From positions 1 to 58,132 of the forward strand of contig CALGNX010000021.1 of assembly GCA_937958265.1 (NCBI GenBank): a DNA stretch of 58,132 nucleotides. Reading direction: 5' to 3'. A model generated the notes under the pieces. That model saw only the letters and a list, made by a program, of their open reading frames with translations. It did not search any database and had not been told where the DNA came from. The position numbers and the translations under genes are program-made. This document shows positions 33,532 to 54,601 of this stretch, one piece after another (the first letter of the stretch is position 1; every line of letters begins with the position of its first letter). The stretch is from an uncultured Algibacter sp. GTDB taxonomy: Bacteria > Bacteroidota > Bacteroidia > Flavobacteriales > Flavobacteriaceae.

Positions 33532-34305
33532 CTAGTTAATTTTTCGCTTGTAATAGGCATACAGATCATCGGCGTTAGCTCCAAACCACTTTTTTACGTA
33601 AATGGACCAGAAAATATATTGAAGTTTCCAAACACCATGTTTTTTATATAGTCTAGCAGATGTTTTTAATTTTTTATTAATAACCACAAATTCATTTCTT
33701 GCGTATAATTCATTAATTAAAATATTATCCTCGTATATAATATACGCTTCATTAAAGCCACCAATAGTGTTAAATAAATGTTTGCTTATAAACTGACTTT
33801 GGTCGCCACCTCTACAGGCGCGCCAGCTAAATTTAGTAAGCCAGCTAGCTAATTTTAACCACCAATGGTTACTATCAAATTGCATTCTAAAACATCCTGC
33901 TAGGTTTCCTTTTTTAACCTCATTTAGTATAAAAACATCAAAGTTTGCTGGAGGTAATGAGTCTGCGTGTAAAAAATACAAAATACTTCCAGAAGCAGAT
34001 TTAGCACCAATATTCATCTGTTTGGCACGTCCTTTTTCTGAATCTAGAATTTTAAAAGATATTTTTTTGTTTTCTGTTAAATTAGTTGAAGCATTTAAGG
34101 TCTCTGTACGCTTGTATGTTGTCGCTTCATTTACCTTATTAATAGGAGTAAAGCCATGTAAAATATCTTTGGTTTGGTCTGTACTACCTCCATCTACTAC
34201 AATAATTTCAGAAATATTTTTACATGAGGCATTTACTGTAAGATGATTTAATAACTTACCAATGTGATTGGCTTCATTTAGGGTAGGGATAATAACACTA
34301 ATCAT
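33532..34305 (-). CDS. TIGR04283-type arsenosugar-locus glycosyltransferase
   Basis: 257 residues, GT2 fold. It begins SVIIPTLNEANHIGKLL and has VDGGSTDQT, then FLHADSLPP, and the family block FSWRACRGGDQSQF. Members of this family occur in arsenosugar gene clusters. Between the DGGSTD motif and GRAKQMNIGA there are about 25 extra residues rich in Thr/Lys/Asn compared with the usual short linker, so the loop near the active site is longer here. Last gene of the long minus-strand locus. Confidence 0.85.
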   Translation of the reverse strand: MISVIIPTLNEANHIGKLLNHLTVNASCKNISEIIVVDGGSTDQTKDILHGFTPINKVNEATTYKRTETLNASTNLTENKKISFKILDSEKGRAKQMNIGAKSASGSILYFLHADSLPPANFDVFILNEVKKGNLAGCFRMQFDSNHWWLKLASWLTKFSWRACRGGDQSQFISKHLFNTIGGFNEAYIIYEDNILINELYARNEFVVINKKLKTSARLYKKHGVWKLQYIFWSIYVKKWFGANADDLYAYYKRKIN

Positions 34306-34383
34306 AAAAATGGCTTACGCAAAAATAATAGCTTGAGTTTTAAATATGTTACGCTTAATAACTAATCTAGGGAATAATGATGT

Positions 34384-35307
34384 TTAATCATTCAAGGCCC
34401 AATTATAATTTTTATAGCTTTTTTTTGCTTCTGAAGAAATAGTAATATCAGAATATTTATTTAAAAAACCTAAGACCCCTCCATCGACTTTAAAGTCTTT
34501 AGAAAACCACTGAAATATTTTTGATATTTTGTAATAGTTCTTGGATATTTCATTTCTACTAGGGTCGTTTAAAAATTCTTTTGTTGCTTTTGTTAGTTGG
34601 TCGTCAACTTGTAGTGCGGTAAACGCTTCGTTTTGGAGTTTGGGGCAAGAAAATGATGCGCAAACAATACCGAAATGAATTCTTGGGTCGTTCATTTCTC
34701 TTAGTATATCATGTTCAATTTGGTTTAAGTTTATCCATTTTTTTCCTAGTTTCCAATAGCGTTGGTCCCAAGGGTCTTTAATATCTTTAATGCTTTTTAC
34801 TGGGTAGTTACGCAGTATTAAATCTATTGTCATAGCATTGTAGGCATTCATCCAATACGCTAATTTTTCTTCTTTTGTCCAAGCGTTATTTGGTATATTA
34901 TTGCTTAAGTTTTTAATGTAATTTAGTAAGGCTTTACGCTCTGTTTTAAAACCTTTATAGTTAACGTTTCCTTGGTTTGTAACATGTTTTTTTAATAGGG
35001 TATTCCATTCGTTATGATTAAAAGCTATTATTTTTTTCTTGTTTGTAACTTTGGCAGTATCTATTGATTTAACATTTTTTACAAGAGATTTAGGCGGTAT
35101 ATCTTTTATGTTTTTTGTGGTAACTAAGGGCGTTGTAGTTCTTTTTAATTCTGAATTTTCCTTTTTGGGTATTGTGTTTTTTAATGTTACTTTATCTTCA
35201 ACCCTTGCGCTCGTTGCAATATTTTTTTTTGATGTCTCTATAGTCTTTTTCGTGCTAGAGCAAGATGTGACAAAAATAAATAGGATGATTATCGGATAGT
35301 ATTTCAT
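34384..35307 (-). CDS. DUF547 lipoprotein in the arsenosugar locus
   Basis: 307 residues. Lipobox TSCSS near residue 17, then a Lys/Thr/Ser-rich low-complexity tether (about 20-85) and a C-terminal DUF547 domain with YWMNAYNAMTIDLILRNYP, INLNQIEHDILRE and FGIVCASFSCPKL. It is related to the gene at 26655 over the domain only. Its role in arsenosugar metabolism is unknown; the two-Cys block is a conceivable thiol site for arsenic or sulfur chemistry (inference). Confidence 0.8.
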   Translation of the reverse strand: MKYYPIIILFIFVTSCSSTKKTIETSKKNIATSARVEDKVTLKNTIPKKENSELKRTTTPLVTTKNIKDIPPKSLVKNVKSIDTAKVTNKKKIIAFNHNEWNTLLKKHVTNQGNVNYKGFKTERKALLNYIKNLSNNIPNNAWTKEEKLAYWMNAYNAMTIDLILRNYPVKSIKDIKDPWDQRYWKLGKKWINLNQIEHDILREMNDPRIHFGIVCASFSCPKLQNEAFTALQVDDQLTKATKEFLNDPSRNEISKNYYKISKIFQWFSKDFKVDGGVLGFLNKYSDITISSEAKKSYKNYNWALND

Positions 35308-35321
35308 AGGTGTTTTAAATT

Positions 35322-36224
35322 TTATTTATCAAATTTGGGTTTTGTTGAGAATAAAGGATACATTTCTTGCTGTATAAAATTTTTAGGAAATTTTTCATCT
35401 CCAGAAAAACCAATTTCTATGTCTTTTCCATCATGTGGAATATATTCTGTATTGAATAGATAGTCCCAAATACTTAACGTTAGTCCATAGTTTACACCAA
35501 ACCTTGCATGATTAGGAAGTGTTTTTGCATGATGCCAAATATGCATTTTAGGGTTGTTAAAAATGTATTTAAAAATACCATAATCCCACCCCAAATTAGC
35601 GTGGTTTAAATGTCCAATAGTAATACTTAAAAAATAAACTATAGCAATATCCTTCGCGTTGTAATTACCAATTATAGCAATAGGAATATATAATAACGAT
35701 TTGTAAACAACGGGCTCCATCCAATGGTAACGTAAATGCGCGGCAAACCCCATCTCTTTAACCGAGTGGTGTACTTTATGAAAGTTCCATAGCCAAGACA
35801 CGCGGTGTAATAAGCGATGGGTATTCCACTGTATAAAGTCTGATACAATAAAGAATACAAATAACCCTAACCATTTTGGTAAATTATCCACATCAAATAA
35901 CTGAAAACTTTGTGTAGATAAACCAATAAAGCTTAATAAATCATCAAAAAATTGAGACGCCGTGTTTGATAGGGCTATCAAAATAATAAGATTAAGTAGA
36001 AAAAAATTAAAAAACATATAAAAGGTATCTAACCAGAAATCTTTTCTAAATATAGATTGATTTTTACGCCAAGGAAAAAGGATTTCTAAGCCCCAAACTA
36101 CAAGCGAAATAATAATTAAACCGTAAAAATAGTTGTCCCAATGGTTCTGGAATAAAATTTCGTTTTTTAGATAGTTCCAGTAACCAGAATAGGAGTTTTT
36201 TATAAGTTCTATATATTTCTCCAT
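35322..36224 (-). CDS. Sterol desaturase / fatty acid hydroxylase-family protein
   Basis: 300 residues with about four to five membrane helices. The di-iron histidine boxes are all visible: HRLLH, FHKVHHS, and HIWHHA with flanking NHARFG. Family members are oxygen-dependent hydroxylases or desaturases in the inner membrane. Located between ArsM and the DUF547 gene on the same strand, it could modify a lipid moiety attached to arsenosugars, which would lead towards arsenolipids; this is inference from position only. Confidence 0.8.
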   Translation of the reverse strand: MEKYIELIKNSYSGYWNYLKNEILFQNHWDNYFYGLIIISLVVWGLEILFPWRKNQSIFRKDFWLDTFYMFFNFFLLNLIILIALSNTASQFFDDLLSFIGLSTQSFQLFDVDNLPKWLGLFVFFIVSDFIQWNTHRLLHRVSWLWNFHKVHHSVKEMGFAAHLRYHWMEPVVYKSLLYIPIAIIGNYNAKDIAIVYFLSITIGHLNHANLGWDYGIFKYIFNNPKMHIWHHAKTLPNHARFGVNYGLTLSIWDYLFNTEYIPHDGKDIEIGFSGDEKFPKNFIQQEMYPLFSTKPKFDK

Positions 36225-36308
36225 AAGTAATATTGTTTTTTAATTTTTTTCTTACTTGTAATTATAAATTTAATGTTATTAGTTTTAGTTTAAAGTATAT
36301 TTTGCTTG

Positions 36309-37280
36309 TTAGCAACAACCACCGCCATCATAATGGTATGTAGATTCGCTAATAAAAATATCATCACGACCAAGTTTGGCGATAGCTCCTGCTGTTTTAT
36401 CGCAAATAGCTAAGGGTTGATTTTTAATTAAAACGTGTCCTTTTTTATCATCAAAATAATCTTCAGATCCATAATAAATAGCCGCTTTACCTGTGAAAAT
36501 GCAAGGGCCATCTTTTGGCATAGGGTCTTTAATGGCGGCAACTTCAATAGATTCTATATAAATTAATTCATCTGTTGGGTAGTTTTTAGGATCTAGAATT
36601 CTATATGGTTTTCTAGCTCGAATTTCAATAGTGCCAAATCCAGCATCTGTAAGCGCTTTTACATATTCGGCAATTGGTAGGCTACCACTTAAGCATAATG
36701 CGCGTAACCTGTCATCGTTGCGTAGCGCATCATTCATAGGTTGCTCACAAGTTGGGTCGCTCATTACCAAACGGCCATGTGGTTTTAGAACACGGTACAT
36801 TTCTGCAATAGCTTTTTTTAAATCATCGGCTTTAAAAATGTTAAACAAACAATTTTGAGCAGCAACGTCAATGCTATTATCGTTTACAGGTAAATGCATG
36901 GCATCTCCTTTTTTAAGATCTACAAAATCACTTTTAAACCAATCATTTTGTGTTTCTGCTTCAATGAAATTTTTTCTAGAAGCCTCAAGCATTTCATCTA
37001 CCACATCAATACCTATAACACCACTTTTTTGCCTGTTAAAATAAGAGAATTGTAATAATTCCATACCGCCTCCAACACCAACATATAACATTTTTGGATT
37101 ATTTGCTAGGTCTCTAGCATGAACTGTAGATCCGCACCCGTAGTTCATTTCTTGCATAATTTTTGGAATTGTTAAACCAGGTAATTCCCAAATAGGGTTT
37201 GTTGTACAGCATAAGCCAATATCTGGCGTTAGAGCTGCTTCTTTATATACATTATGGGTGGTTTCTAAGTAGGTGCTCAT
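36309..37280 (-). CDS. arsM: Arsenite S-adenosylmethionine methyltransferase, arsenosugar type
   Basis: 323 residues. The methyltransferase core shows LYVGVGGGMELLQ (SAM loop I), GIDVVDEML, NSIDVAAQNCLFNIF and EMYRVLKPHGRLVMSDPTC. Arsenic-binding candidates are Cys24-Cys25 (GLCCTTNP), Cys49 (YGCGS), the Cys in DPTCEQ, and a terminal Cys-Cys in DGGGCC. It should methylate As(III) to mono- and dimethylarsenic for ArsS. The gene is seven bases from the phosphorylase gene, so they are cotranscribed. No arsR repressor is present in the window. Confidence 0.88.
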   Translation of the reverse strand: MSTYLETTHNVYKEAALTPDIGLCCTTNPIWELPGLTIPKIMQEMNYGCGSTVHARDLANNPKMLYVGVGGGMELLQFSYFNRQKSGVIGIDVVDEMLEASRKNFIEAETQNDWFKSDFVDLKKGDAMHLPVNDNSIDVAAQNCLFNIFKADDLKKAIAEMYRVLKPHGRLVMSDPTCEQPMNDALRNDDRLRALCLSGSLPIAEYVKALTDAGFGTIEIRARKPYRILDPKNYPTDELIYIESIEVAAIKDPMPKDGPCIFTGKAAIYYGSEDYFDDKKGHVLIKNQPLAICDKTAGAIAKLGRDDIFISESTYHYDGGGCC

Positions 37281-37287
37281 ATCTAGG

Positions 37288-38100
37288 TTATAAGGTTTTA
37301 ATTAAGGTTTTAAAAAGTGTAATCATATGGGGTTCTGCTTGGGTAGCACTTGCTATAATATCGGTAATGTCTACAGGTTTTAAATGTTCAGGATCGCATT
37401 CGTCTGTTAAAACAGAAATGGCAGCAACCTTTAGATTTAAATGATTGGCAACAATAATTTCGGGTACGGTACTCATACCTACAGCATCTGCTCCCATAAT
37501 TTTTAGCATACGGTATTCTGCTCTCGTTTCTAATTGAGGTCCAACAACACTTGCATAAACACCTTCGTGTAAAATAATATTATTAGTTTTAGCTATAGCT
37601 TTAAATCTGCTGTTTATTTCGGCATCGTACGGTGCGCTCATGTCTGTAAAACGTGTTCCTAATGCTTCAACACCTTTAAATGCTAAGGGTGATCCTCCTT
37701 GAAGATTGATGTGATCTTCAATTAGCATTAATTCACTTTTTTTGAAATTCAGGTTTATGGCACCTGCTGCATTTGAGACTAAAAGTGTTTTGATACCTAA
37801 TTTTTCCATTATACGTACTGGAAATGTTACGTCTTGCAGGGTATAACCTTCATATAAATGAAATCGCCCTTGCATAACTATAACTTTTTTGCCTGATAGA
37901 TTACCGTAAATTAATTTACCCTTATGAAATTCCACAGTTGCTATTGGGAAATTTGGTATTTCATTGTAGTTAACTTCACTTAGAACTTCAATGTCATTTA
38001 CAATTTGGCCTAATCCTGTACCTAAAATAATACCTATTTCTGGTGCTTGAAATCCTTTGTTAATTAAATAATCTACGGTTTCTGTTATTTTTTTAATCAT
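37288..38100 (-). CDS. Purine nucleoside phosphorylase
   Basis: 270 residues, trimeric-type PNP family. Signatures are ILGTGLGQIVNDIE, the phosphate loop GRFHLYEGYTLQDV, LLVSNAAGAIN, and the base-binding segment MSTVPEIIVANHL. It cleaves purine nucleosides with phosphate. In this locus the natural target would be the deoxyadenosyl-arsenic product of ArsS, releasing adenine and leaving arsenosugar 1-phosphate; this is inference, as housekeeping salvage is also possible. It sits between the T9SS-sorted DM13 protein and arsM with 6-7 base gaps. Confidence 0.88.
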   Translation of the reverse strand: MIKKITETVDYLINKGFQAPEIGIILGTGLGQIVNDIEVLSEVNYNEIPNFPIATVEFHKGKLIYGNLSGKKVIVMQGRFHLYEGYTLQDVTFPVRIMEKLGIKTLLVSNAAGAINLNFKKSELMLIEDHINLQGGSPLAFKGVEALGTRFTDMSAPYDAEINSRFKAIAKTNNIILHEGVYASVVGPQLETRAEYRMLKIMGADAVGMSTVPEIIVANHLNLKVAAISVLTDECDPEHLKPVDITDIIASATQAEPHMITLFKTLIKTL

Positions 38101-38106
38101 TTAAAA

Positions 38107-38841
38107 TTATTCTTTTATAAAGCGTGTTGTTTTAAAAGCTTGTCCGGATACTGTTTTTAATAAATACATACCTGCTTTTAGTTGCGCTATATTAATGTTT
38201 ATTTTGGATACAGAAGATTCATCAATGTGAATTACCTCACTACCTAAAACGTTATAAATGCTAATTGTAACTGGTAATTTTTTATTGTTTTCAAAAGTTA
38301 AATTTCGCTTGGCTGGGTTAGGGTATATTTTAAAATTTGTTGCAATCTCGCTAGTGTTAACATTTAAAACACTGCAGTTTGTGCTAGTAAATGGTTCTAT
38401 GCTACCAAAATCCCAGAAGGCATTGAATTGCAAACAGTAAAAGAAAATTTTGTCGTAGTCTCTAATGTCTTCACCAGCAGGAATATCTACAGTAAACGAT
38501 TTCTCTCCGTTAGCAGAAATACTAGGGCTGCAATTTGTACATCCCACAAGTCCGAATGGTATATTTGTTAAATTTGAAATTCTGGCATTTTGAAGTTGAC
38601 TATCACTCATGCCTTGCGAGTTTATTAAGTACGCTCTAACGTCGGGTCCATCAGCAGTCATAAAATTTGACCCTAGATCTAGGGATACTGTGTTGTTTGA
38701 GTTAAGAGTTACTGTAACATCACCTGTTACTCGATAAGAAGGAACTGTTTGATTGCCGAAATTAGTGCCGTTTTCAACACATTGCGCGTAGCTTAATTGA
38801 AAAGTTATGCATAAAAGAATTGAAAGTAGTGTTTTTGTCAT
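38107..38841 (-). CDS. Secreted DM13-domain protein with type IX sorting domain
   Basis: 244 residues. Signal peptide (cleavage near SYAQ), then a DM13 domain (about 30-155) with VSLDLGSNFMTADGPDVRAY and LVGCTNCSPSI. It ends with a Por secretion (T9SS) sorting domain from about residue 168: FKIYPNPAKRNLTF, then ISIYNVLGSEV and LKAGMYLLK. It is therefore exported across the outer membrane and probably surface-attached. DM13 has been proposed as a redox or cytochrome-like module; its cysteine pair supports a thiol role. Its place in an arsenosugar operon is unusual. Confidence 0.85.
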   Translation of the reverse strand: MTKTLLSILLCITFQLSYAQCVENGTNFGNQTVPSYRVTGDVTVTLNSNNTVSLDLGSNFMTADGPDVRAYLINSQGMSDSQLQNARISNLTNIPFGLVGCTNCSPSISANGEKSFTVDIPAGEDIRDYDKIFFYCLQFNAFWDFGSIEPFTSTNCSVLNVNTSEIATNFKIYPNPAKRNLTFENNKKLPVTISIYNVLGSEVIHIDESSVSKININIAQLKAGMYLLKTVSGQAFKTTRFIKE

Positions 38842-38901
38842 TATAATTAATTTTATTATTTGTAAATAGTCGTGTTCTTTTTTTTAGACACTACAATTTA
38901 A

Positions 38902-39540
38902 TTATTTTAATTTAATATTTAGTTCTTTTATCCTTTTTTGAAGTGTAATATTTGATTTGTAGAACTCTGAAGCTTTTAGGTCATCAAAGGTATCTATATC
39001 ATTTAAAGTTTTTAGAAGGCTAACGGTGTATGTTGATACATCTAATTCTTGTAATGTTTCTTTCAGTAAATTGGGCGCACTCCATGGTTTATTATCAAAT
39101 ATGGCCTCATTCATTTTTGATAAGCCTATTAAATAATATCCGCCATCCTCAGCAGGGCCAAAAACAACATCATTTTGTTTAAGAACATTAAGACCTTGAT
39201 TAATATCGTTAGCAGTAATATCGGGTAAATCTGAACCAATTAAAACAATTTTTTCATAACCATCTTCAAAACCTTTTTTAAATGCATTTTTCATACGCTC
39301 GCCTAAATCAGGGCCTTTTTGAACGTATTTTTTTTCAGATTTCCATTGGTTTTCTACTATAGATTTGGAGAAATAGATGCGCTTATCTGCATTAAGTTTT
39401 ACTGTAGCCTCTTCTGTAACGCGTACTAATTTAGTGTAAACCTCAAATGCAGCTTGATTGCCAATAGTTTTAGCTAAGCGCGTTTTTACTTGTCCTAACG
39501 CTATGTTTTTTACAAATACTATAACAAGATTTTTATTCAT
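38902..39540 (-). CDS. TIGR04282-type arsenosugar-locus glycosyltransferase (DUF2064)
   Basis: 212 residues. Nucleotide-sugar-binding start NKNLVIVFVKNIALGQVKTR, then GPDLGERMKNAF, the Asp-containing loop LIGSDLPDI and the signature GPAEDGGYYLIGL. It belongs to the DUF2064 family linked to arsenosugar clusters. Its start overlaps the end of the rhodanese gene by eight bases. A paralogue with altered motifs lies at 47172 in the same locus. Confidence 0.85.
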   Translation of the reverse strand: MNKNLVIVFVKNIALGQVKTRLAKTIGNQAAFEVYTKLVRVTEEATVKLNADKRIYFSKSIVENQWKSEKKYVQKGPDLGERMKNAFKKGFEDGYEKIVLIGSDLPDITANDINQGLNVLKQNDVVFGPAEDGGYYLIGLSKMNEAIFDNKPWSAPNLLKETLQELDVSTYTVSLLKTLNDIDTFDDLKASEFYKSNITLQKRIKELNIKLK

Positions 39541-40030
39541 ATACTTTAATCCCTTTTCTTAGCCATTCACTCCATTCTTTTGAAAATGTATGTATGCTAT
39601 CTGTTTCTTTTTCTGCTAAATTATAAACAGGAAGATTATTACTTTTCCATTCAAAAATACCTCCATATAAATTTTCTACATGTGTATATCCTGCTTTTTT
39701 TAAGCTGTCGCCAATATGTTCCGAACGTATGCCTACAGAGCAATATACTACTATTTTAGCATCTTTATTTGGTATTATTTTTTCAACATTAGTAACTTTA
39801 AAGTGGTCGTACCCTACGTGAATGGCATTTTTTAAATGGCTTGTTTTGTATTCTTTAAGTTCTCTAGAATCCAGTAAAATAACATCTGTTTTAGGCATCG
39901 CTAATTCCTGTGGAGAAATATAGGGTATACTATTGTTATTGTATTTTTTTAGTAATTTGCTTACAGATTTTTGTGCAGCAATTGGGGTGGTGAAGCACAC
40001 TAAAATTAAAACTAATAAAATGTTTTTCAT
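39533..40030 (-). CDS. Periplasmic rhodanese-like protein
   Basis: 165 residues. Sec signal peptide (cleavage after PIAAQ) and a single rhodanese domain with the catalytic Cys97 in the loop VVYCSVGIRSEH; LLDSRELKEY and VENLYGGIFEWKS complete the fold. It may handle sulfane sulfur in the periplasm, or bind arsenic through its reactive thiol. Cotranscribed with the TIGR04282 gene by an eight-base overlap. Confidence 0.85.
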   Translation of the reverse strand: MKNILLVLILVCFTTPIAAQKSVSKLLKKYNNNSIPYISPQELAMPKTDVILLDSRELKEYKTSHLKNAIHVGYDHFKVTNVEKIIPNKDAKIVVYCSVGIRSEHIGDSLKKAGYTHVENLYGGIFEWKSNNLPVYNLAEKETDSIHTFSKEWSEWLRKGIKVYE

Positions 40031-40067: not shown

Positions 40068-40904
40068 TTATATCATATTTATGCCAAATCCTTGTAAGCC
40101 ACTTTCAACAGCTGGTAGTATTTCTGTATTATCCCAAATACCAGTAATTATTGTTCTAGCGTATTCTTGGGGTAACAATTGGTTCTGCATAAGTTGGTTT
40201 GTTAGTTTATAATTATAGTTTAGGGTATGGTGTTTATATTCTAAATTTCCGTTTACTTCATTAAGAATAGCGTACCATACCGTAGGGTTTCCATCATTCG
40301 CTGGCATGCCTATAACTCCTGGGTTTATCCATAATTTATCATGTTTTTTATGGTGGAAAGGTAGGCCACAGTGCCCTCCAATTACAACATCGTAATTTGT
40401 ATTCGCTATTGTGAAATTTGGTGCTTTAACTTCCCATGGTGAAGATTTAAAAATAAACTCTGATGTGTTAGCGTATGATCCATGAACAACCATAAATTTT
40501 TTACCTGCATAATTAAAAGTTATATGGTCTGGTAGTTTATCCATAAATTCTATGGATGTTTTTGAAAGTAAATTTTTAGCGTAAGGGTACCATTGTTGTG
40601 AGAACCCATCGCAACGCGAACCTTTCTTAAAATCGCAACCACAATCTGCAGCTCCTGTTCTTAATTGTATTTCTACATTACCTGCAATACTTTTTGCTTT
40701 CCAGATTTTAAATAATTGTACAGTTTCTTCCGGCTGCGCACAATAACCAACAATGTCGCCTGTACAAATGCAATTTTCTGCCTTTATGCCTTCAGATTCT
40801 GCAATTTGTTTCAAAGCTTCCAAAGCTTGGAGGTTGCTATAAACGCCTCCAAATAATAGTACTTTATTACTAATGTTTCCTAAGTTTTCTATTTTTTTAT
40901 GCAT
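40068..40904 (-). CDS. Phosphoesterase-fold protein, cysteine-rich, canonical metal ligands replaced
   Basis: 278 residues. The fold is that of YfcE/MJ0936-type phosphoesterases, with GDIVGY intact, but the hallmark DxH is GVY (FGGVYSNLQ, residues 19-24), the GNHD is GNVE (75-78) and GHTH is GHCG. It has Cys at 45, 47, 55, 88, 90 and 98 plus the one in GHCG, including the cluster ADCGCDFKKGSRC. From memory, relatives in other genomes share FGG-YSN and the D-CGC cluster, so this is probably a family trait. A thiol or As(III)-binding function is possible (inference). Confidence 0.75.
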   Translation of the reverse strand: MHKKIENLGNISNKVLLFGGVYSNLQALEALKQIAESEGIKAENCICTGDIVGYCAQPEETVQLFKIWKAKSIAGNVEIQLRTGAADCGCDFKKGSRCDGFSQQWYPYAKNLLSKTSIEFMDKLPDHITFNYAGKKFMVVHGSYANTSEFIFKSSPWEVKAPNFTIANTNYDVVIGGHCGLPFHHKKHDKLWINPGVIGMPANDGNPTVWYAILNEVNGNLEYKHHTLNYNYKLTNQLMQNQLLPQEYARTIITGIWDNTEILPAVESGLQGFGINMI

Positions 40905-40946
40905 TGTAAATCTTTGGTTTTTAAATGGATTACGAATTGTAACGTG

Positions 40947-42284
40947 TTAATTATATCTTATCCATTTTGGAGCTAAATATAAAAATATGCAGCTTAAAAT
41001 ACCCCAAATATTAACCCAAAGTAAATCTGCATTCTTGCCTGTTGTAAATATGAGTGTTTTTGGGAAAATACCAAATACGAGTATAAACCCAAAAACCAGA
41101 CCACAAATTATACTTAGGTAAAAACTAATTTTAGGAACAGTCATATTCCAAAATAAAAAAATAGGTGTTAATCCAATCACCATAGTGCCAGATATGGTGG
41201 TAGCAGATAAAATTTCTACATCCAAGAAAATAGGGAGTGTCCCTAAAATGGCTATGGCTACCATAGCTGCTCTACCAAATGTTAAATTTTTACCTATATT
41301 CAAATCTATAGCCAATAGTTTTGAAAATGATGAAAATGTAGAATCTAGGGTTGATGCTGCCGATGTTATCATTATGAAGTTAATAACCAGAAGTATGACC
41401 ATGCCAAAAGCTTTACCAACTTCTACAGCGGCTTGGCCTTGCATACCTTGAGTTTGAGCAAAAACACCTATTAAACTAAAAAGTATGATACAAGTAGCGC
41501 CTAGAACGCTAGCTAATAAAAAACTTTTTAAAGTGATTTTTGGAGAGCTTATAAATGCCCGATCGGTTAAAACGGGATCGTGAAATGGGTAGCTAAAGGA
41601 TTGAATAAGTGCGGCAAAAAATAAATTTAAACCCAATTCAAAACTCCAAGTTCCTGAGCTCGTAATTTTCTGTACTGTGAAGCTTTCCACCGAAAAAACA
41701 TGGTATAAAATAACTAGTAGTAATACTGAAAATAAACTCATTTGGATAACGTCTGTAAAAATAGAACTACTTAATCCGCCTTTTATGGCATAAGCTAAGG
41801 TTAGCATTGTGAATAAAATAATGGACCAATAATAAGGTGCACTGCCGGCGCTACCAAAATAACTTCCAATAACCATGGTGTTACTCCAAACTTCATTAAA
41901 TAAACGTATTGCGATCAAAATAGAGAATAGTGCCATAGCACCATTGCCAAATTTTGATGTTAAAAATTCGTGAATACTTTTAAACCCACCTTTAGTACGT
42001 AATTTGTAAATTAGAATACCAGCTACGGCAAACGATAAATAGTAACCAGCATAAGCTACACCCCCAACTAAACCATAATCTAGGCCTAAATTGGCGGCAT
42101 TAGTTATGCTTTTTGCAAAAATCCATGAGATGATAAGGCTACCTGTTAATACCAAGGTATTGGGTGCTTTTTTCCTTTTGGTAGCTTTAAAAAACTGACT
42201 TGTTGTTTTTGCATAAGGCGATAAGAGGAACAGTATTAAACTTGATCCTATAATTAACAGCCATTGCATTGTTTTTGTGTCCAT
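40947..42284 (-). CDS. Sodium:solute symporter
   Basis: 445 residues, about twelve to thirteen hydrophobic segments, SSS family (LeuT-like fold). Characteristic stretches are TDVIQMSLFSVLLL and DPVLTDRAFISS, with an early GLVGGVAYAGYYLS. It imports a small solute with Na+ across the inner membrane. In this locus the solute may be an arsenic-containing or arsenosugar-precursor compound entering via the SusC/SusD pair immediately upstream (inference). Confidence 0.8.
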   Translation of the reverse strand: MDTKTMQWLLIIGSSLILFLLSPYAKTTSQFFKATKRKKAPNTLVLTGSLIISWIFAKSITNAANLGLDYGLVGGVAYAGYYLSFAVAGILIYKLRTKGGFKSIHEFLTSKFGNGAMALFSILIAIRLFNEVWSNTMVIGSYFGSAGSAPYYWSIILFTMLTLAYAIKGGLSSSIFTDVIQMSLFSVLLLVILYHVFSVESFTVQKITSSGTWSFELGLNLFFAALIQSFSYPFHDPVLTDRAFISSPKITLKSFLLASVLGATCIILFSLIGVFAQTQGMQGQAAVEVGKAFGMVILLVINFIMITSAASTLDSTFSSFSKLLAIDLNIGKNLTFGRAAMVAIAILGTLPIFLDVEILSATTISGTMVIGLTPIFLFWNMTVPKISFYLSIICGLVFGFILVFGIFPKTLIFTTGKNADLLWVNIWGILSCIFLYLAPKWIRYN

Positions 42285-42361
42285 TTATCTCGTGGTACTT
42301 GCAGTTTTTAAATTTTTTAATTAATCTGTGCTCCAGAAAATGTTTTTGCTGTTCTAAATAA

Positions 42362-43807
42362 TTAAGGTATGCTCCACCATACAGCGCTGTTAATACTATT
42401 GTTGTCTGTTTTTATAGCAGCACTGTTATAATTTTCTGTGTTTAAAGTAGCTTCTTCTGCAGGGTAAGGCATTCTTACAGGTATTAAATTGTTGTTTAAA
42501 CTCGCAGAAATACTTCGTAATTCAGGGAAGCCTGTACGTCTGTATTCTGTCCATCCTTCGTAGCCGTTTATAACGTTTGCTATCCATTTTTGAGTTATAA
42601 TTTGCTCTAATGGTGTTTTATTAGGGTTGTTAAATGCTGCTTCAGTAGCCAAATAATTGGCAGGTAATTCTGTATTCCAATATTCAAAAGCTAATGCGAC
42701 ACCTGTTTCGTAAAGTTCTTGTGCATTAGCTGTTATAAAATTCTTTTCAGCAGCTTCTGCAAAAGCAAAGTAAACTTCCCATGCTGTTATAAAATTAGCA
42801 TCTAAAGTTGAGGTGTTTTCTCTAAAGGTTGTGCCTGCTAACGAAAAATTGGCTAGTGTTACGGGTGTAGTAGTTGCGTCTACACCGTTTAATAATCCAT
42901 TAAACTCATTGGCTGTTGTATTGGCAAAAGGTCTGAAAAGTGTTTGGATTCTGGTATCGTTTAAGCCAGTTAAAATATCTTCCATAGTTTCAGAAAGCAC
43001 AAAGTTATTAAAATCTCCTGCGCGTAATTGGGCTAGCCGAAAGCTGTTTGGTGCAGCGTTTGTAAAATTGAAAATAGCGTTTTGTGCATTTGTTTTTATA
43101 TAATTATCAGCATCAAAAAGTGCTTGTAATTCTTCAGAAACATCTACTTTGCTAGATATTCTAATTAAACTTTTAACTTTTAAAGCATTTGCAAAACGAA
43201 TCCATGCTTGTAAATCACCATTAAATAAAATATCGCCTTCTAGAACAATGGCATCTGTATAGTTTTCAATAGCTTCAATGCCTCTTGTTAGGTTGTCCAA
43301 AATACCACCTGCGTTGTTGTAAATGGATTCTTGTGTGTCGTAAACGGGGGTTACTGTTTTGTTTATCCCATCAAAAGCATCAAAATAAGGCACGTCGCCA
43401 AATATGTCTGTTAATCCGGCAGCCATGTATGCTTTTAAAATTAAAGCAGGTCCTTCGTAAACTTTAAAGGCATTCGTGGTTTTGGCTTGGTTTAAAATGA
43501 TCTCGTTATCTCTAAGGTTTTTGTAAAAAATAGGCCAAGGATTTCCTCCCAATTGTGGTGATTTAAGGGCGTGCCTATCAAATAAGTTAAAATCTAAAGC
43601 GGTACGGTGTTGTGCTAATAAATCTCCAGCTACAAAACCTTCATAACTCATTTCTTCTCCGTAATTGTAAATTACCTGCCTAAGTAATAAACTAGGTTGT
43701 ACAGAAACCGGTGCGTTTGGGTTGGTGTTAATATCTTCAAAGCCTTTTGTGCAACTTGTAGTTACTACTAAACTTATAAACGTTATTATATATATTATGT
43801 GTTTCAT
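42362..43807 (-). CDS. susD: SusD/RagB-family surface lipoprotein
   Basis: 481 residues. Lipobox TTSC near residue 19, followed by INTNPNAP and the helix-rich tetratricopeptide core. It resembles the SusD-like lipid-anchored substrate lid, and the closing WTEYRRTGFPELR and NYNSAAIKTDNNSIN are typical. It caps the SusC barrel and should decide which solute is brought in. It follows susC by 100 bases. Substrate unknown; by context it may be an organoarsenic or precursor compound. Confidence 0.88.
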   Translation of the reverse strand: MKHIIYIITFISLVVTTSCTKGFEDINTNPNAPVSVQPSLLLRQVIYNYGEEMSYEGFVAGDLLAQHRTALDFNLFDRHALKSPQLGGNPWPIFYKNLRDNEIILNQAKTTNAFKVYEGPALILKAYMAAGLTDIFGDVPYFDAFDGINKTVTPVYDTQESIYNNAGGILDNLTRGIEAIENYTDAIVLEGDILFNGDLQAWIRFANALKVKSLIRISSKVDVSEELQALFDADNYIKTNAQNAIFNFTNAAPNSFRLAQLRAGDFNNFVLSETMEDILTGLNDTRIQTLFRPFANTTANEFNGLLNGVDATTTPVTLANFSLAGTTFRENTSTLDANFITAWEVYFAFAEAAEKNFITANAQELYETGVALAFEYWNTELPANYLATEAAFNNPNKTPLEQIITQKWIANVINGYEGWTEYRRTGFPELRSISASLNNNLIPVRMPYPAEEATLNTENYNSAAIKTDNNSINSAVWWSIP

Positions 43808-43907
43808 TTTCTTCGTTTTATTTCCTATTAGATTTTAAAAGCCTAATAGATGTTTTTTATTTTCAACCAGAAAAGGTTTAGTGCCTTTTATAGGATAAAC
43901 TATTTTT

Positions 43908-46900
43908 TTAAAAATTAAATCCAGCCTTAAAACCAAAGCTTCTGGTTGTAGCATAACTTAAATCTTCAACACCACTTACAAATCCATTTCCTTGTACGGC
44001 AATTTGTTCGGGATCAAAATGTGGGTTTTCTGTTATAGCAAATAGATTGTTACCGGTAAAAGATAAATTTAAATTGGCACCATCCTGAAGTCCTAAGAAA
44101 CCGTCTTTTATTTTAAAGCTATACCCAATAGCAAATTGGCGGAGTTTTAAAAATGAAGCATCGTAAACATTATTTTCTTCATGGTTTCTGTCGAAAAACT
44201 GTCTGTAATAACTTTCGGCATTAACAGCTACTGTGTTTGGTTGTCCTGTATTTTGGTTTACGCCTTGTGCTATAATGCCTGCTTCTGGTCTAAACCTAGT
44301 TTCTGCTAATTGGCCACCAACATTACCTAATGCGCGCGTTCTAGAAACAACTTCTCCACCTTGTCTCCAATCAAACAAGACATTTAAATTCCAGTTTTTG
44401 TAGCTTAAATTATTATTCCAACCTAATGTGAAATCTGGGTTGTAATTACCGATTTTCTGTAAATTATTATCGGCTATAAAGCGTCCATTATCGTCAATAA
44501 TGAAATCACCATTATCGTTTTTTAAATAGCCTGTACCATATAAATCGCCTATGCGTCCGCCTTCTTCAACTTGAAACCAAACAGTTTGGTTAGCACTATC
44601 GTAAATTCTACTAAATGCTAATGTTAAACGGCCATCGTTTTGTGGTAAATTTTCAATTGTGGAACGGTTAGTTGCAAAATTGAATGTCGTGTTCCATTTA
44701 AAATTTTGATTTTTTATAGGGGTTATCCCTAAAACAATTTCAACACCTTGTGTATTGACCTCGCCGCCATTAACTACTTGCTCATTAAAACCTGATGATA
44801 CAGCGATGGGTAACGAAATAATTTGATCTTTTGTGGTGGCATTATAATAGGTGAAGTCAAAATTTAAACGGTCTTTAAAGAAACGGAAGTCAGCACCAAA
44901 TTCGTAATTTGTAGTTTGTTCTGGTTTTAAATTTGCATTAGGGATAAAATTTTGATTACTAAATGTAGGTTCGCTATTAAATGAGGTTTGCGATACAAAA
45001 GCACCAGAGGTTTGGAAAGGGCTTGTATCGTTTCCTACTTGTGCGACACTAGCACGTAATTTTGCAAATGAAAATACACTTGGTAACTCAGTAACGTTCG
45101 ATAAAATAAAACTAGCCGATGCTGATGGGTAGAAAAACGATGTGCCATCTACAGAAAAAGGGGTAGCTAAAGCGCTAGACCAATCATTTCTTCCTGTTAT
45201 ATCCAAAAATAAAAAGTTTTTGTAACCTAATTTAGCAATTCCGTAAAATGAATTAATTTGTTTTTCGCTTTTAAATTGAAAGACCTCAATAGGAGAGGCG
45301 GCATTATTTAAGCTAAAAATACCAGGTTGTGCTAGATTTATTGTTTGCGATTGTTTTGTGGATGCTGTTTGGTTTAAACGATTGCCACCTGCAGAAATAT
45401 TTACAGAGAAATCGCTAAATATATTGTTGTAATTTATTAAGAAATCTGTGTTAACCTCTCTATATTTTACATCATGCTCGGCATAGCCGCCATTTTGAAA
45501 TCTATTACTACTAAAGTTTCTACGCAGTTGTCGCGTTTCGCTACTGTAATCCATTCCTGTACGTAAGGAAACGCTCAAATGGTCTGTAATATTTTGTTTG
45601 ATATTAATGTTACCAAAAATTCTATCACGCTCAAAGGAATTTCTGTTTTCTTCTAAAATGAAAAATGGGTTGTCGAAAAATGTGTAATTAAAGGAATATT
45701 GCTGAACACCTTCCAAACCAGGTTGCCAATAATTTCTAAGATTGTCAATGTTTAAAGAACGTGGCCCCCATGCTACTAAAGAGTAGTTTGCGTTTTCGCT
45801 ACCATAACCGTTAGATGGTCTGTTGTCGCTACTAGAATTTACGTAATTAATAGCTGTATTTATTTCTGTTTTGTCCGATGGCTCGAAGTTTAGTTTTGCA
45901 GCAACAGTTTGTCTGTTTAAATTAACGCCGGGAATAATAGATTCACTTTTTAAATCCGTAAAAGATAAGCGGTAACTACCGGTATCAAAACCATTGGAAA
46001 TTGCTATATTATTTATCGTTGTAGATCCTGTTTTATAAAAGTCTTTTAAATTATCTGGATTGGAATTAAAAGGTGTTGGCGTTATTGGTAAGCCATTATA
46101 CAATGCTGTATCACCACCTCGAACAAACGTGCCATCGGGCAATTGTACTGGGCTATCAAATTGCGAAATAAAGTTGCCAGCATCTAAACGTGGGCCCCAA
46201 GAATAGGTGATATTATCACTAGTGCCGCCACCTAAACCATCAACAAATTCAAAAACGCCAGACTGACCTTGACCGTATTCATTTTGAAATTCTGGTAATT
46301 TAAAAGCTGAATCCACAGTGATAGATGTATTTAAACTTACACTAAAACCTTTTTTCTTATTGCCATCCTTTGTTTTTATTACAATTACACCATTTGATGC
46401 TCTAGTACCATAAAGCGCTGCTGCACTAGGTCCTTTTAAAACAGTAACCGATTCGACATCGTCCGGATTAACTTCCATAGCGCCATTTCCGAAATCTACT
46501 TCCTGAAACCCTGCGGCAGCTTGATTTGTAAAATTAAAAACAGTTTCGTTATTAATAGGGATACCATCCACAACAAAAAGGGGATTGTTATTTGAAAATG
46601 AAGCTTCGCCACGAATGGTTATTTTAGATGAAGACCCAACACCTGTAGCGCCTTGGGTAACGGTAATACCTGCCAATTTGCCTTGAAGATTATCTAAAAA
46701 ATTAACTGTTTTAACTTCGGTTAAACTTTCCGATTTTATAGCCTGTATAGCGTACCCCAACTCTTTAGTGTCGCGCTCTATACCTAGTGCAGTTATTACA
46801 ATTTCATCTAGGGCTGAGGTATCTTCTTGTAGCGCGATGTTAATTACAGTTTTATTCCCAACAATAATTTTTTGAGTTTTATAACCTAAATATGAAAAGA

Positions 46901-47102
46901 TTAATTGACTTGTTTCAGACTGTACTTCAATAGAGAAATTACCATTTTCGTCTGTGATTGTTCCTTTTTTAGCAGTTGTTGATATGTTTACAAAGGGAAT
47001 TGTGGTTGTGTTGGTGGCATCTGTTACGGTACCTGTAATAGTAGTTTGTGCATGGCTAATACCAACAAGGGCTAGCATGATGCATAGTATAGTGTGCTTC
47101 AT
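43908..47102 (-). CDS. susC: SusC/RagA-family TonB-dependent transporter
   Basis: 1064 residues. Signal peptide (cleavage after SHAQ), carboxypeptidase-regulatory-like domain (about 20-100), plug domain (about 110-230; NPLFVVDGIPINNET) and a 22-strand barrel ending GFKAGFNF. It imports an unknown solute using TonB energy, partnered by the following SusD. Position between a glycosyltransferase/ArsS gene pair and the symporter makes it part of the arsenosugar locus. It has no anti-sigma or FecR partner in view. Confidence 0.9.
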   Translation of the reverse strand: MKHTILCIMLALVGISHAQTTITGTVTDATNTTTIPFVNISTTAKKGTITDENGNFSIEVQSETSQLIFSYLGYKTQKIIVGNKTVINIALQEDTSALDEIVITALGIERDTKELGYAIQAIKSESLTEVKTVNFLDNLQGKLAGITVTQGATGVGSSSKITIRGEASFSNNNPLFVVDGIPINNETVFNFTNQAAAGFQEVDFGNGAMEVNPDDVESVTVLKGPSAAALYGTRASNGVIVIKTKDGNKKKGFSVSLNTSITVDSAFKLPEFQNEYGQGQSGVFEFVDGLGGGTSDNITYSWGPRLDAGNFISQFDSPVQLPDGTFVRGGDTALYNGLPITPTPFNSNPDNLKDFYKTGSTTINNIAISNGFDTGSYRLSFTDLKSESIIPGVNLNRQTVAAKLNFEPSDKTEINTAINYVNSSSDNRPSNGYGSENANYSLVAWGPRSLNIDNLRNYWQPGLEGVQQYSFNYTFFDNPFFILEENRNSFERDRIFGNINIKQNITDHLSVSLRTGMDYSSETRQLRRNFSSNRFQNGGYAEHDVKYREVNTDFLINYNNIFSDFSVNISAGGNRLNQTASTKQSQTINLAQPGIFSLNNAASPIEVFQFKSEKQINSFYGIAKLGYKNFLFLDITGRNDWSSALATPFSVDGTSFFYPSASASFILSNVTELPSVFSFAKLRASVAQVGNDTSPFQTSGAFVSQTSFNSEPTFSNQNFIPNANLKPEQTTNYEFGADFRFFKDRLNFDFTYYNATTKDQIISLPIAVSSGFNEQVVNGGEVNTQGVEIVLGITPIKNQNFKWNTTFNFATNRSTIENLPQNDGRLTLAFSRIYDSANQTVWFQVEEGGRIGDLYGTGYLKNDNGDFIIDDNGRFIADNNLQKIGNYNPDFTLGWNNNLSYKNWNLNVLFDWRQGGEVVSRTRALGNVGGQLAETRFRPEAGIIAQGVNQNTGQPNTVAVNAESYYRQFFDRNHEENNVYDASFLKLRQFAIGYSFKIKDGFLGLQDGANLNLSFTGNNLFAITENPHFDPEQIAVQGNGFVSGVEDLSYATTRSFGFKAGFNF

Positions 47103-47171
47103 TTAATGTTAAATAAAAATTAGTAAGAGTATCTGAGAAAAAAACAGATTTAAAGGAATCTATAAATGAAG

Positions 47172-47840
47172 TTATGCTGGCGAGCCTTTATTGAAAGGTT
47201 GGTTTAGTATGAATGTTGTAAAAACTGTATAATAATAAGTGATTACCTTTTTTGTAATTAAAAGCGATTGCAGTAAAAGTGTTTTAATAGTTCTAGATAG
47301 TGCCTTAAAACTAGTAATAACTAACTTTATATCTGTAGTAGTATTAATGTCTGTTAACAGTTCTAAATAGCAAATAGCTACTTTATTGGTACTTGTTAAT
47401 TTGGAAATACTTCTATTTAAAGTGTGTGTTTGCCAAGGTAATTTTAAAAAAAGGGTTTTATTAAATTGTTTTTTTTTAAGGCCCATTAAATAAAAGCCAC
47501 CACCAGTTGAAGGCCCTAAAACAAGATTGTGCTTTTGGAGTTTTTCAACTGTTTTTAAAATATGTTTTGATGTTAAATGCGGGGTATCGTTTCCAATAGT
47601 AATAATGGCATTAAAACCTTTGTTGTAAATGGATTCTATGGCGTGAGTAAAACGTTCGCCAAAAGAATTTCCAATTTGTTGCGTTTCGGTATAATGAAAA
47701 TAAGGTAAGCCTGTTTTTTTTGCAACTGCTATGGTTTTAGCATTTAATGTTTCAAATAAATTTCTGGATAAAAAAGATTTTGAAATAATTTCTTTTTCAG
47801 CAGAATTTGCAAAAATTAATATGGCGGTTTTATTATTCAA
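47172..47840 (-). CDS. TIGR04282-like (DUF2064) glycosyltransferase paralogue, diverged
   Basis: 222 residues. The fold start NKTAILIFANSAE, GNSFGERFTH, and IGNDTPHL parallel the TIGR04282 gene at 38902. But the key GPAEDGGYYLIGL motif reads GPSTGGGFYLMGL, so an acidic pair is lost. The C-terminal third is basic and hydrophobic, with no counterpart in the paralogue. It may be a non-catalytic partner or a copy with changed specificity. Confidence 0.75.
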   Translation of the reverse strand: MNNKTAILIFANSAEKEIISKSFLSRNLFETLNAKTIAVAKKTGLPYFHYTETQQIGNSFGERFTHAIESIYNKGFNAIITIGNDTPHLTSKHILKTVEKLQKHNLVLGPSTGGGFYLMGLKKKQFNKTLFLKLPWQTHTLNRSISKLTSTNKVAICYLELLTDINTTTDIKLVITSFKALSRTIKTLLLQSLLITKKVITYYYTVFTTFILNQPFNKGSPA

Positions 47841-47960
47841 ATATTTTTTACGCTTTAAGCACCTTGTGTTTTGTTTATTTTAAATCCTGTTAAATTAAAA
47901 GCTATTACAGGGTGTCTTGTTTTTTTTTACTCTCTTTAAGAGGTTAGTTTACTTGTAAAT

Positions 47961-49016
47961 TTAAGCGACTACACCTTGGCAACTACTACCTGCGCCGGCT
48001 GTGCAACCGTAACAGTGTTGCGAGATAATAATATTGCGCCCCTCTAAAAGACTTTCGTTGTATTCCGAAACGTGTTTCGATTTGCTGTTTACTGGTAAGC
48101 CAAGCATTTGGTTAAAATCGCAATCAAACAGGTAGCCATCCCAACTTATGGAAAGGGTGTTGGTACACATTACGTTTTTAACAGCAGTAGGGTTGTAGGC
48201 CTCTACAAGTGCATACATGTAATCATCGTAATTTTCAGATGCTATTAAGTAATCTAAAAATCGTGCTATGGGTAGGTTGGTAATGGCGAATAAATTGTGG
48301 AATTGAATTCCGAAATCGTCCATTAAACCTTTTTTAAAATCTTTTTCCATAGCCATTTGGTCGCCAGGTAAAAAGGCACCTGAAGGGTTGTACACCAAGT
48401 CCAACCTTAAGCCGCTGCCTGGCATACCGTAGCCAATAGCATTTAATTCTTGTAATGCTTTTATGGATTTATCAAAAACACCGTTGCCTCGTTGTTTGTC
48501 TGTTTTTCCACGTGTCCAGTGTGGCATGGAGCTTACAACATGTACATTGTGTTTTTTGAAAAATTCTGGTAAATCGTAATATTTTTTATTGGCTCGGATA
48601 ATAGTTAGGTTGGAGCGTACTATAAAATCTTTAATACCTGCTTTGGCAGCTTCTTCTACAAACCAACGAAAATCTGGATTCATTTCTGGTGCGCCACCAG
48701 TTAAATCCAAGGTGTGTGCACCGGTGTTTTTTATAATATCTAAACATTGCCGCATGGTGTCTCGCGTCATTATTTCTTTGCGGTCTGGTCCGGCATCTAC
48801 ATGGCAGTGTTCGCACACTTGGTTACACATGTAGCCTACGTTTATTTGTAGTATCTCCAATTTTTTCGCTTTAAGCGGAAATTGGTTAGTCTCGGAAATT
48901 TTATCTTTAAATGTTGGCAGTTCTCCATTTCGGAAAATACCGTTGGATAGCAGCTCTAATTGCTTGTTACTATTTGCTAAATCGCTGTTGCGTTTTTGTA
49001 GAGATTTTGTTGCCAT
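47961..49016 (-). CDS. arsS: Arsenosugar biosynthesis radical SAM protein
   Basis: 351 residues. Radical SAM cluster cysteines in CNQVCEHC (Cys64, 68, 71) and LDLTGGAPEMNP (SAM GGE-type loop). The C-terminal DUF3641-type extension has cysteines DCDFNQML and HCYGCTAGAGSSCQ. ArsS transfers the deoxyadenosyl group of SAM to dimethylated arsenic, the committed step to arsenosugars. It follows the peroxidase-like gene, with a dispersed repeat between them. Signature gene of the locus. Confidence 0.93.
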   Translation of the reverse strand: MATKSLQKRNSDLANSNKQLELLSNGIFRNGELPTFKDKISETNQFPLKAKKLEILQINVGYMCNQVCEHCHVDAGPDRKEIMTRDTMRQCLDIIKNTGAHTLDLTGGAPEMNPDFRWFVEEAAKAGIKDFIVRSNLTIIRANKKYYDLPEFFKKHNVHVVSSMPHWTRGKTDKQRGNGVFDKSIKALQELNAIGYGMPGSGLRLDLVYNPSGAFLPGDQMAMEKDFKKGLMDDFGIQFHNLFAITNLPIARFLDYLIASENYDDYMYALVEAYNPTAVKNVMCTNTLSISWDGYLFDCDFNQMLGLPVNSKSKHVSEYNESLLEGRNIIISQHCYGCTAGAGSSCQGVVA

Positions 49017-49079
49017 ATTTTGATGTATGAATTACGGTTTTTTATAAATTTTATACGTCTACGTAATTTGTTGTGTTTT

Positions 49080-49173
49080 GCGTTAGGGATTGTAGAGGAT
49101 AGCCCACAGCTTTTGCACTTTTCTGCAAAAGTGAGGACTTGGAACGGAAAGCCTGACCCTTGTGGTAACGCCC
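49080..49173 (-). repeat. Dispersed intergenic repeat, copy 3 (reverse orientation)
   Basis: On the minus strand it begins GGGCGTTACCACAAGGGTCA and ends CAATCCCTAACGC, matching copies at 11231 and 18303. It contains the palindrome TTTTGCA...TGCAAAA. It lies between arsS and the peroxidase-like gene. Confidence 0.75.
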
Positions 49174-49178
49174 TGCTG

Positions 49179-49514
49179 CTAACCGTCTAGTTTGTTTACT
49201 TTATTCATCATTTGTACGCCATGTACTAGGGTTGCTCCACTTTTTATGGCGGCGCCTACATGAATGGCTTCCATCATTTCGTCTTTGGTAACGCCACGTT
49301 GTAGGGTGTCTTTGGTGTAAGCGTCTATGCAGTATGGGCATTGCTCTGTATGTGCAACGGCTAAGGCTATTAAAGATTTTTCGCGGGCGGTTAATGCACC
49401 TTCTTCAAAAACTTTGCCATAATACTCAAAGAATTTGTTGCCTAATTCTTCGCTCCATTCTGTGATTTTTCCAAATTTTCTTAAATCTGCTGGGTCGTAA
49501 TATGTTTTTTGCAT
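49179..49514 (-). CDS. Arsenosugar-associated carboxymuconolactone decarboxylase/peroxidase-like protein
   Basis: 111 residues, AhpD-like fold. Active-site CxxC is Cys59/Cys62 in HTEQCPYCIDAY, followed by the helix GAAIKSGATLVHG. This family recurs in arsenosugar loci and is annotated 'peroxidase-like'. It may handle peroxide or reduce arsenic intermediates. It appears to be the first gene of the minus-strand locus. A near-match TATCTTTA at 49529-49536 on the minus strand could be its promoter. Confidence 0.88.
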   Translation of the reverse strand: MQKTYYDPADLRKFGKITEWSEELGNKFFEYYGKVFEEGALTAREKSLIALAVAHTEQCPYCIDAYTKDTLQRGVTKDEMMEAIHVGAAIKSGATLVHGVQMMNKVNKLDG

Positions 49515-54600: not shown

Positions 54601-54601
54601 T

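Follow-up and report, generated by a model that had tools for sequence, protein, structure and literature searches.

We analyzed a 58,132-nucleotide stretch of DNA from an uncultured Algibacter sp. of the Flavobacteriaceae (assembly GCA_937958265.1, contig CALGNX010000021.1, our C21; hereafter the window), which belongs to a genome of 2.89 Mb in 31 contigs that is 99.83% complete. A first-pass annotation, made from the letters, had described here a fifteen-gene, one-strand arsenosugar locus extended with uptake and lipid-modifying genes, and all fifteen open reading frames (ORFs) are indeed found where it placed them, on the minus strand between positions 33532 and 49514, with -8 to 162 bp between neighbours (Table 1). 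Between arsS and the rhodanese gene of this run lies a block of five genes, GT82a-susC-susD-SSS-MPE (40068-47840), on which this work centers. Its last member, a degenerate metallophosphoesterase (MPE) gene, had been left unnamed.

Table 1. Genes of the arsenosugar locus, in order from its 5' end, with profile scores against the cut-off of each family
Gene or product	Position	Strand	Evidence
TIGR04169 arsenosugar-associated peroxidase-like protein (AhpD/CMD family, CxxC)	49179..49514	-	192.5 bits, cut-off 120
arsS, radical SAM enzyme, TIGR04167	47961..49016	-	435 bits, cut-off 300
GT82a, diverged TIGR04282-like, TTG start, opens the cassette	47172..47840	-	91.9 bits, below cut-off 134
SusC TonB-dependent transporter	43908..47102	-	TIGR04056 629 bits, cut-off 368
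SusD-like lipoprotein (SusD-like_2)	42362..43807	-	PF12771 289 bits, cut-off 27, E 7.8e-86
SSS-type Na+/solute symporter-like membrane protein	40947..42284	-	TIGR00813 43.8 bits, cut-off 184, E 1.7e-11
MPE, degenerate metallophosphoesterase	40068..40904	-	PF12850; fold search
Rhodanese NF045521 (rhoda_near_glyco), apparent signal peptide (by eye)	39533..40030	-	207 bits, cut-off 145
GT82b, TIGR04282 glycosyltransferase/nucleotidyltransferase-like	38902..39540	-	194 bits, cut-off 134
DM13 protein with type IX secretion system (T9SS) sorting tail	38107..38841	-	PF10517 31 bits, cut-off 25; TIGR04183 53 bits, cut-off 23
Purine nucleoside phosphorylase (PNP)	37288..38100	-	PRK08202 336 bits, cut-off 218
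arsM, arsenosugar-type arsenite methyltransferase, NF038099	36309..37280	-	574 bits, cut-off 400
Fatty-acid/sterol hydroxylase family membrane protein	35322..36224	-	PF04116 92 bits, cut-off 31, E 4.4e-26; OlsE 87 bits, below 475
DUF547 protein, lipoprotein-like N-terminus (by eye)	34384..35307	-	PF04784 94 bits, cut-off 27, E 1.2e-26
GT83, TIGR04283 glycosyltransferase	33532..34305	-	220.5 bits, cut-off 182

Gene identities were assigned from profile scores in bits relative to the family cut-offs. The proteins that mark an arsenosugar locus (ArsS, an NF038099 ArsM, and TIGR04282 and TIGR04283 proteins) each exceed them, as do PNP and the TIGR04169 protein, so that the core named in the first-pass annotation stands; the same holds for its SusC, SusD, rhodanese, T9SS-tailed DM13, DUF547 and hydroxylase-family assignments. 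Two names held in part: TIGR04282 is borne out for GT82b, whereas the second copy, GT82a, falls below the cut-off, and the Na+ symporter shows a remote similarity to the SSS family while scoring below the cut-offs of PF00474 (18.5 versus 22.8) and TIGR00813.

The locus was compared with (i) the 80 best ArsS loci from a scan of genome contigs, most of which extend no more than 10 kb past arsS, (ii) 159 Flavobacteriaceae genomes, nearly all of different genera, and (iii) 395 genomes of the phylum, in which MPE was sought at E 1e-30. The arsenosugar core is ordinary in this family: arsS occurs in 117 of the 159 genomes, and the core that emerges from the 80 loci reads peroxidase-arsS-rhodanese-GT82b-(DM13)-PNP-arsM-(hydroxylase)-DUF547-GT83. 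Because the hydroxylase and DUF547 genes are common neighbours of the core (38 and 63 of the 94 loci without the cassette), they can be linked to the pathway, in which the modification of a lipid aglycone suggested in the first-pass annotation would be a conceivable role for them; rhodanese is found in 55 of these 94 loci, and a DM13 gene is seen sporadically (4 of 94, and 5 of the 23 loci with the cassette). Importers of other kinds also occur in the loci lacking the cassette, namely PiT phosphate transporters in nine of 94 and Oar-type TonB receptors in two; in G063, a genome with neither of the ArsM types described below, the slot of the cassette is occupied, judged by eye, by genes for an Oar-type TonB receptor and an ABC importer, along with a radical SAM gene.

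The five-gene block is a different matter. In 23 of the 80 loci, arsS-GT82a-susC-susD-SSS-MPE are contiguous and in the same order, and the arrangement is therefore not a matter of chance. Two further loci (L028, L044) carry SSS-MPE without susCD and the remaining 55 display no SSS-MPE pair, one of them, L074, stopping right after GT82a and thus escaping judgement. The cassette is, then, a portable block, inserted as a unit or absent. The first-pass annotation had stated that absence of the extra genes beside arsS in relatives would count against it, and the block does lie beside arsS in those 23 loci; the idea that all fifteen genes form one fixed pathway had nevertheless to be dropped, as the symporter-MPE pair is absent from 94 of the 117 genomes with arsS and was not seen in 55 of the 80 loci. 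GT82a was likewise rejected as a strictly cassette-borne gene, since it adjoins arsS in 11 of the 94 loci without the cassette. The window copy has GGG, with GGT as its first codon, in place of the DGG contained in all 25 other survey copies; among the 25 copies of the 80 loci, one (L041) also lacks DGG, and a C-terminal NKGSP motif is present in 24 of the 26 survey copies.

In the family survey, MPE was found in 23 of the 159 genomes (56-100% identity), with SSS in the same 23 and adjoining it each time; weak MPE-like matches in G113, G108 and G054 (28-30% identity), the first of which has no arsS match, are excluded from this count. The pair is present in 23 of the 117 genomes with arsS versus none of the 42 without it (Fisher p 6e-4), and in 22 of the 23 carriers it lies within about 8 kb of arsS. 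The phylum survey yielded MPE in nine genomes, eight of them new and five of these in other families; all eight have arsS and all show the order susC-susD-SSS-MPE, which brings arsS to 31 of 31 MPE carriers. In six genomes (G056, G152, G050, G075, G454 and G330) arsS has the cassette beside it, and the peroxidase is the only other core enzyme in the fetched stretch. As 94 of the 117 arsS genomes do without it, the pair is an optional module and not part of the pathway core. The uptake of arsenic at the outer membrane foreseen in the first-pass annotation gains from the tie of the block to arsS and from the shortage of ArsM among its carriers, described next, but applies to an optional part of the locus.

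ArsM of the NF038099 type, searched for in genomes that had not been preselected for a missing arsM, occurs in 90 of the 117 genomes that have arsS; the 42 others all lack it. For the 27 arsS genomes lacking it (and three more) we also sought the PRK11873 type, which is over the cut-off in 10 of 16 non-carriers versus one of 11 carriers; the copy of that carrier (G121) has an in-frame stop, and G121 was scored as ArsM-positive in the main figures and as ArsM-negative in one tree test. Neither type is found in 10 of the 23 cassette carriers versus six of the 94 other arsS genomes (Fisher p 5e-5) and, among genomes at least 90% complete, in nine of 22 carriers versus three of 81 non-carriers (p 2.9e-5). 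Three of the six non-carriers lacking both types are 83-88% complete, the others being G063, G046 and G098. The missing arsM is not accounted for by an assembly gap at the locus: in the eight of the 11 carriers without NF038099 that have PNP in the stretch, the next core gene follows 35-272 bp on, and none of the 11 stretches shows a remnant of arsM at E below 0.09. All 11 have arsS and TIGR04283 over the cut-off, the latter having been sought in 17 genomes chosen partly for an arsM missing at the locus, so that its comparison with non-carriers is confined to the loci. On a tree of arsS, PNP, peroxidase and GT82b, a model in which ArsM depends on the cassette is preferred over independence (likelihood ratio 16.8, 2 degrees of freedom, p 2.3e-4), as it is with the 103 genomes at least 90% complete (17.8) and on an arsS-only tree (17.97). 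None of 73 parametric bootstrap replicates, fitted from fewer starts than the data, reached the observed value (95% quantile 6.3, maximum 14.6).

An association of this kind could also arise by hitchhiking, if horizontal transfer had spread a form of the operon that lacks arsM and contains a block for general nutrient uptake, in which case the association would be functionless. The trees leave room for it: they are gene trees in which many branches are weak (12 of the 114 inner branches of the arsS tree are starred), they imply at least 12-14 changes of the cassette, and an independent-pairs sign test, which is more conservative, points in the same direction without reaching significance (3.8 pairs the same way, 0.3 opposite, 3.9 with no difference). 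Against a mere passenger speak the recovery of the dependence on two trees and its survival of the small parametric bootstrap, the absence of the pair from all 42 genomes without arsS, the fusion of MPE to a pathway protein (see below), and the occurrence of both ArsM states among close carriers, G071 having ArsM and its relative G140 (starred branch; 75% complete) lacking it, with a locus that runs from PNP to DUF547 without arsM. We regard hitchhiking as distinctly unlikely.

What MPE may do can be approached from its predicted structure (predicted local distance difference test score, pLDDT, 73.5; predicted template modelling score, pTM, 0.79), which has the fold of calcineurin-like metallophosphoesterases (Foldseek match to 3qfm, E 4e-15, TM-scores 0.68 and 0.75; also 3rqz and 1nnw). 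We take the two-metal ligand set of this fold to be DxH, GD, GNH, H and GHxH, with the DxH and the last H of GHxH presumably serving metal 1 only. Mapped on 3rqz, G20, Y22 and G180 replace these metal-1 ligands in 31 of 31 sequences and the metal-2 ligands D50, N76, H141 and H178 are kept in all, so that none of the 31 has the full two-metal set. Cysteines C55, C88, C90 and C98 are likewise invariant, and C45, C47 and C179 occur in 26, 27 and 28 sequences, respectively. In four genomes, G056, G075, G454 and G330, the last from another family, MPE and a TIGR04169 protein form one fused protein, the TIGR04169 part exceeding its cut-off in every case; this is a direct link of MPE to the part of the pathway around ArsS. 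As no signal peptide is apparent by eye, MPE should be cytosolic.

For the transport proteins, SusC and SusD form a regular pair, separated by 100 bp, and the nearest solved relative of SusC is BT2264 (5fq6). The SSS profile matches the choline transporter SLC5A7 at E 6.9e-6, and a phmmer search with the single SSS sequence returned nothing from the PDB up to E 0.1.

Outside the phylum, MPE-like proteins were met in 22 plasmid records, of which the one from Roseomonas (38.5% identity; the other 21 are at 22-28%) was opened. On plasmid NZ_CP061178.1 (L217) the genes preceding the MPE relative encode a PhnE permease, an ATPase and a binding protein of the PhnD type, which misses the PhnD cut-off and passes the one of the wider family TIGR01098, and the neighbourhood holds TIGR04282, a GT2 protein scoring 165 against the TIGR04283 cut-off of 182, two DUF547 and two radical SAM genes. 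The relative keeps the motifs DCGCxF..G..CD and GHCG, and C55 is not kept. Methylarsonate and dimethylarsinate are analogues of phosphonates and phosphinates; at this single locus, the company of an unrelated importer whose family takes phosphonates is suggestive. The likeness of phosphonate and methylarsonate (MMA) is also drawn in PMC6426599, in the portion of that article consulted. The Roseomonas locus perhaps belongs to a related pathway with another product.

The same locus may be read in favor of a non-arsenic substrate, that is, a cassette importing a precursor or co-substrate (an acceptor alcohol, a nucleoside, or a phosphate or phosphonate ester) on which MPE would act. The fold of MPE is that of phosphodiesterases, the importer in Roseomonas belongs to the phosphonate kind, and the PiT genes mentioned above, together with a PstSCAB-like set in G077, indicate that the locus can have a tie to phosphorus supply. 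Nevertheless, such a substrate predicts no link with a missing ArsM, yet the link is seen; in the six genomes with a split core the cassette stays with arsS and the peroxidase and not with the glycosyltransferases; and, given the ligand set of this fold, MPE lacks the metal-1 ligands for ordinary two-metal hydrolysis. We therefore consider a non-arsenic substrate unlikely. A salvage route, in which finished algal arsenosugars or fragments of arsenosugar phospholipids would be taken up, can be defended on general grounds, as compounds of that size and chemistry would suit SusC/SusD and a phosphodiester would suit the computed fold of MPE; but it would make ArsS needless, while arsS is kept in 31 of 31 carriers, mostly nearby, and we hold this route to be quite improbable.

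Taken together, the tie of the cassette to arsS in related genomes, often without ArsM, suggests the import of arsenic methylated by other organisms. A genome with ArsS and the later steps and without ArsM needs dimethylarsenic from elsewhere, for which the cassette is the natural candidate; ArsM reportedly acts "by providing DMA", in the wording of a paper title met in a reference list. From the gene content we infer the following route. The compound passing the outer membrane through SusC/SusD would contain arsenic and would most likely be a methylated oxyanion, for instance dimethylarsinate, or a conjugate of it; the SSS protein would then move it over the inner membrane by symport with Na+. 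Once in the cytosol, it may be bound by MPE, which is rich in thiols and retains a single metal site, and by the peroxidase-like protein with its CxxC motif, and be reduced by them to trivalent dimethylarsenic. ArsS would adenosylate this product, and PNP and the TIGR04282 and TIGR04283 proteins would turn the resulting nucleoside into an arsenosugar. ArsM would thereby become optional, and the genome of the window would possess both routes. That the arsenosugar operon carries an inserted portable import cassette, which supplies ArsS with methylated arsenic via MPE and the peroxidase and so bypasses ArsM, is a reading to which we give about an even chance. With somewhat less confidence, we propose as a tentative extension that a dedicated portable importer of methylated arsenic lets bacteria lacking ArsM make arsenosugars out of arsenic that their neighbours have methylated, and that MPE founds a new family, combining thiols with a single metal, that together with the redox protein TIGR04169 hands trivalent dimethylarsenic to ArsS.

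Besides the weak trees and the sign test, several observations weigh against a methylated-arsenic importer. Thirteen of the 23 carriers, the window included, keep an ArsM (one with an in-frame stop), and so the cassette was rejected as a simple replacement of ArsM. In the phylum survey, ArsM is over the cut-off in four of the eight new carriers (G439, G240, G520 and G341); for the others, G228 has a sub-cut-off ArsM only and G454, G470 (a 61-bit match) and G330 have none over the cut-off. Conversely, G046 and G098, both 99% complete, have arsS with neither the cassette nor an ArsM of either type. The linkage to arsS is loosened in G087, where the cassette (L093) lies about 180 kb from a core free of it (L094), and in G470, G520 and G228, where cassette and arsS are on different contigs; in Roseomonas, neither radical SAM protein comes near or over the ArsS cut-off. 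As to the proteins, pLDDT is below 50 in the cysteine loop of the modelled MPE, the model of the SSS protein, itself under its family cut-offs, is unusable (pLDDT 39), and BT2264, the closest solved structure to SusC, is presumably a peptide importer.

If the cassette does import methylated arsenic, arsenosugar synthesis could be shared by different organisms, of which one methylates the arsenic and the other builds the sugar, a point of consequence for arsenic cycling. The uptake of organoarsenicals by cells is largely unknown according to the part consulted of a 2025 review (PMC12608789), and a genetically defined importer would make the question testable; the MPE family offers a concrete target for structural and metal-binding work. 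Among the open-access titles and abstract openings listed, to which subscription papers are mostly external, none describes an uptake module in an arsenosugar locus, and no open-access paper was found that joins arsenosugar with Flavobacteriaceae or dimethylarsin- with TonB-dependent.

Several neighbouring genes and locus variants deserve mention. An acyl-CoA dehydrogenase gene (49793-50977, same strand) lies upstream of the peroxidase gene, as in 18 of the 117 surveyed loci, and the only motif on the minus strand of the stretch matching what we take to be the Bacteroidota promoter consensus starts 28 bp upstream of it. Sites resembling promoters or terminators are no commoner in the stretch than in shuffled sequence, and these scans neither prove nor exclude co-transcription of the locus. 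A classical ars resistance operon (arsR, arsB/ACR3, arsC) was not found among the scanned ORFs of the window, in agreement with the first-pass annotation: Pfam shows no ArsR, ArsB, ACR3 or ArsC domain (E 1e-3 or 1e-5) in 48 of the 50 ORFs of at least 120 aa plus the peroxidase, the ORFs outside the scan being two antisense to scanned ones and all smaller ones, among which a small arsR could escape. The sole CitMHS protein of the window matches NhaD. This NhaD-type antiporter gene is followed by genes of the ExbB and ExbD families (52306-54991, plus strand), possibly an energiser for TonB-dependent uptake, and a second DUF547 protein is encoded outside the operon (26655-27368, plus strand). In other genomes, a TetR-like regulator (about 203-222 aa, by eye) directly follows arsS or comes within two genes of it in L099, L100, L104, L110, L120, L121, L122 and L152; downstream of it, the fetched stretches of the first seven show no recognisable further core enzyme, L152 being too short to judge. 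Also by eye, NrfHA-type cytochrome c nitrite reductase-like genes stand between arsS and TIGR04282 in L195 (G142), and the PstSCAB-like phosphate importer set of G077 (L109) lies between arsM and the hydroxylase gene of its arsenosugar locus.

With respect to known systems, the core is ordinary, and the finding lies in the cassette, in its ties to arsS and to a missing ArsM, and in the unusual MPE. According to PMC12159101, the step of arsenosugar biosynthesis performed by ArsS is the adenosylation of arsenic, and cyanobacterial ArsS works with ArsM in the first steps of the synthesis, according to PMC8552651. Like the cyanobacterial genes (Synechocystis ArsM and ArsS), the window pairs ArsM with ArsS; TIGR04167 is over its cut-off in the control genome of Synechococcus elongatus as well, and the TIGR04282, TIGR04283 and TIGR04169 proteins of the window bear arsenosugar names at NCBI. 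In the window an import cassette and rhodanese, DM13, hydroxylase and DUF547 genes share one run with them, and the formation of an arsenosugar is here predicted from the genes. The SusC and SusD proteins are encoded by adjacent genes and match TIGR04056 and PF12771, as in pairs such as BT2263-BT2264; unlike these, they are partnered with SSS and MPE, which were found only with arsS in the surveyed genomes. MPE shares its fold and the metal-2 D, N, H and H with the SapH-type asymmetric Ap4A hydrolases and YfcE-like enzymes (3qfm, 3rqz, 1nnw), from which it departs by G, Y and G in place of DxH and the last H, by the invariant C55, C88, C90 and C98, and by the TIGR04169 fusions. Finally, the nearest physiological parallel is offered by Pelagibacter, a heterotroph exploiting methylated arsenic from others, in which, in the excerpt consulted of PMC6426599, the methyl groups of dimethylarsinate (DMA) are oxidised, phnD is up-regulated by DMA, and the genes of this SAR11 route are only partly guessed at. 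Whereas Pelagibacter demethylates DMA, with no importer established in that excerpt, the fate proposed here for the imported compound is arsenosugar via ArsS.

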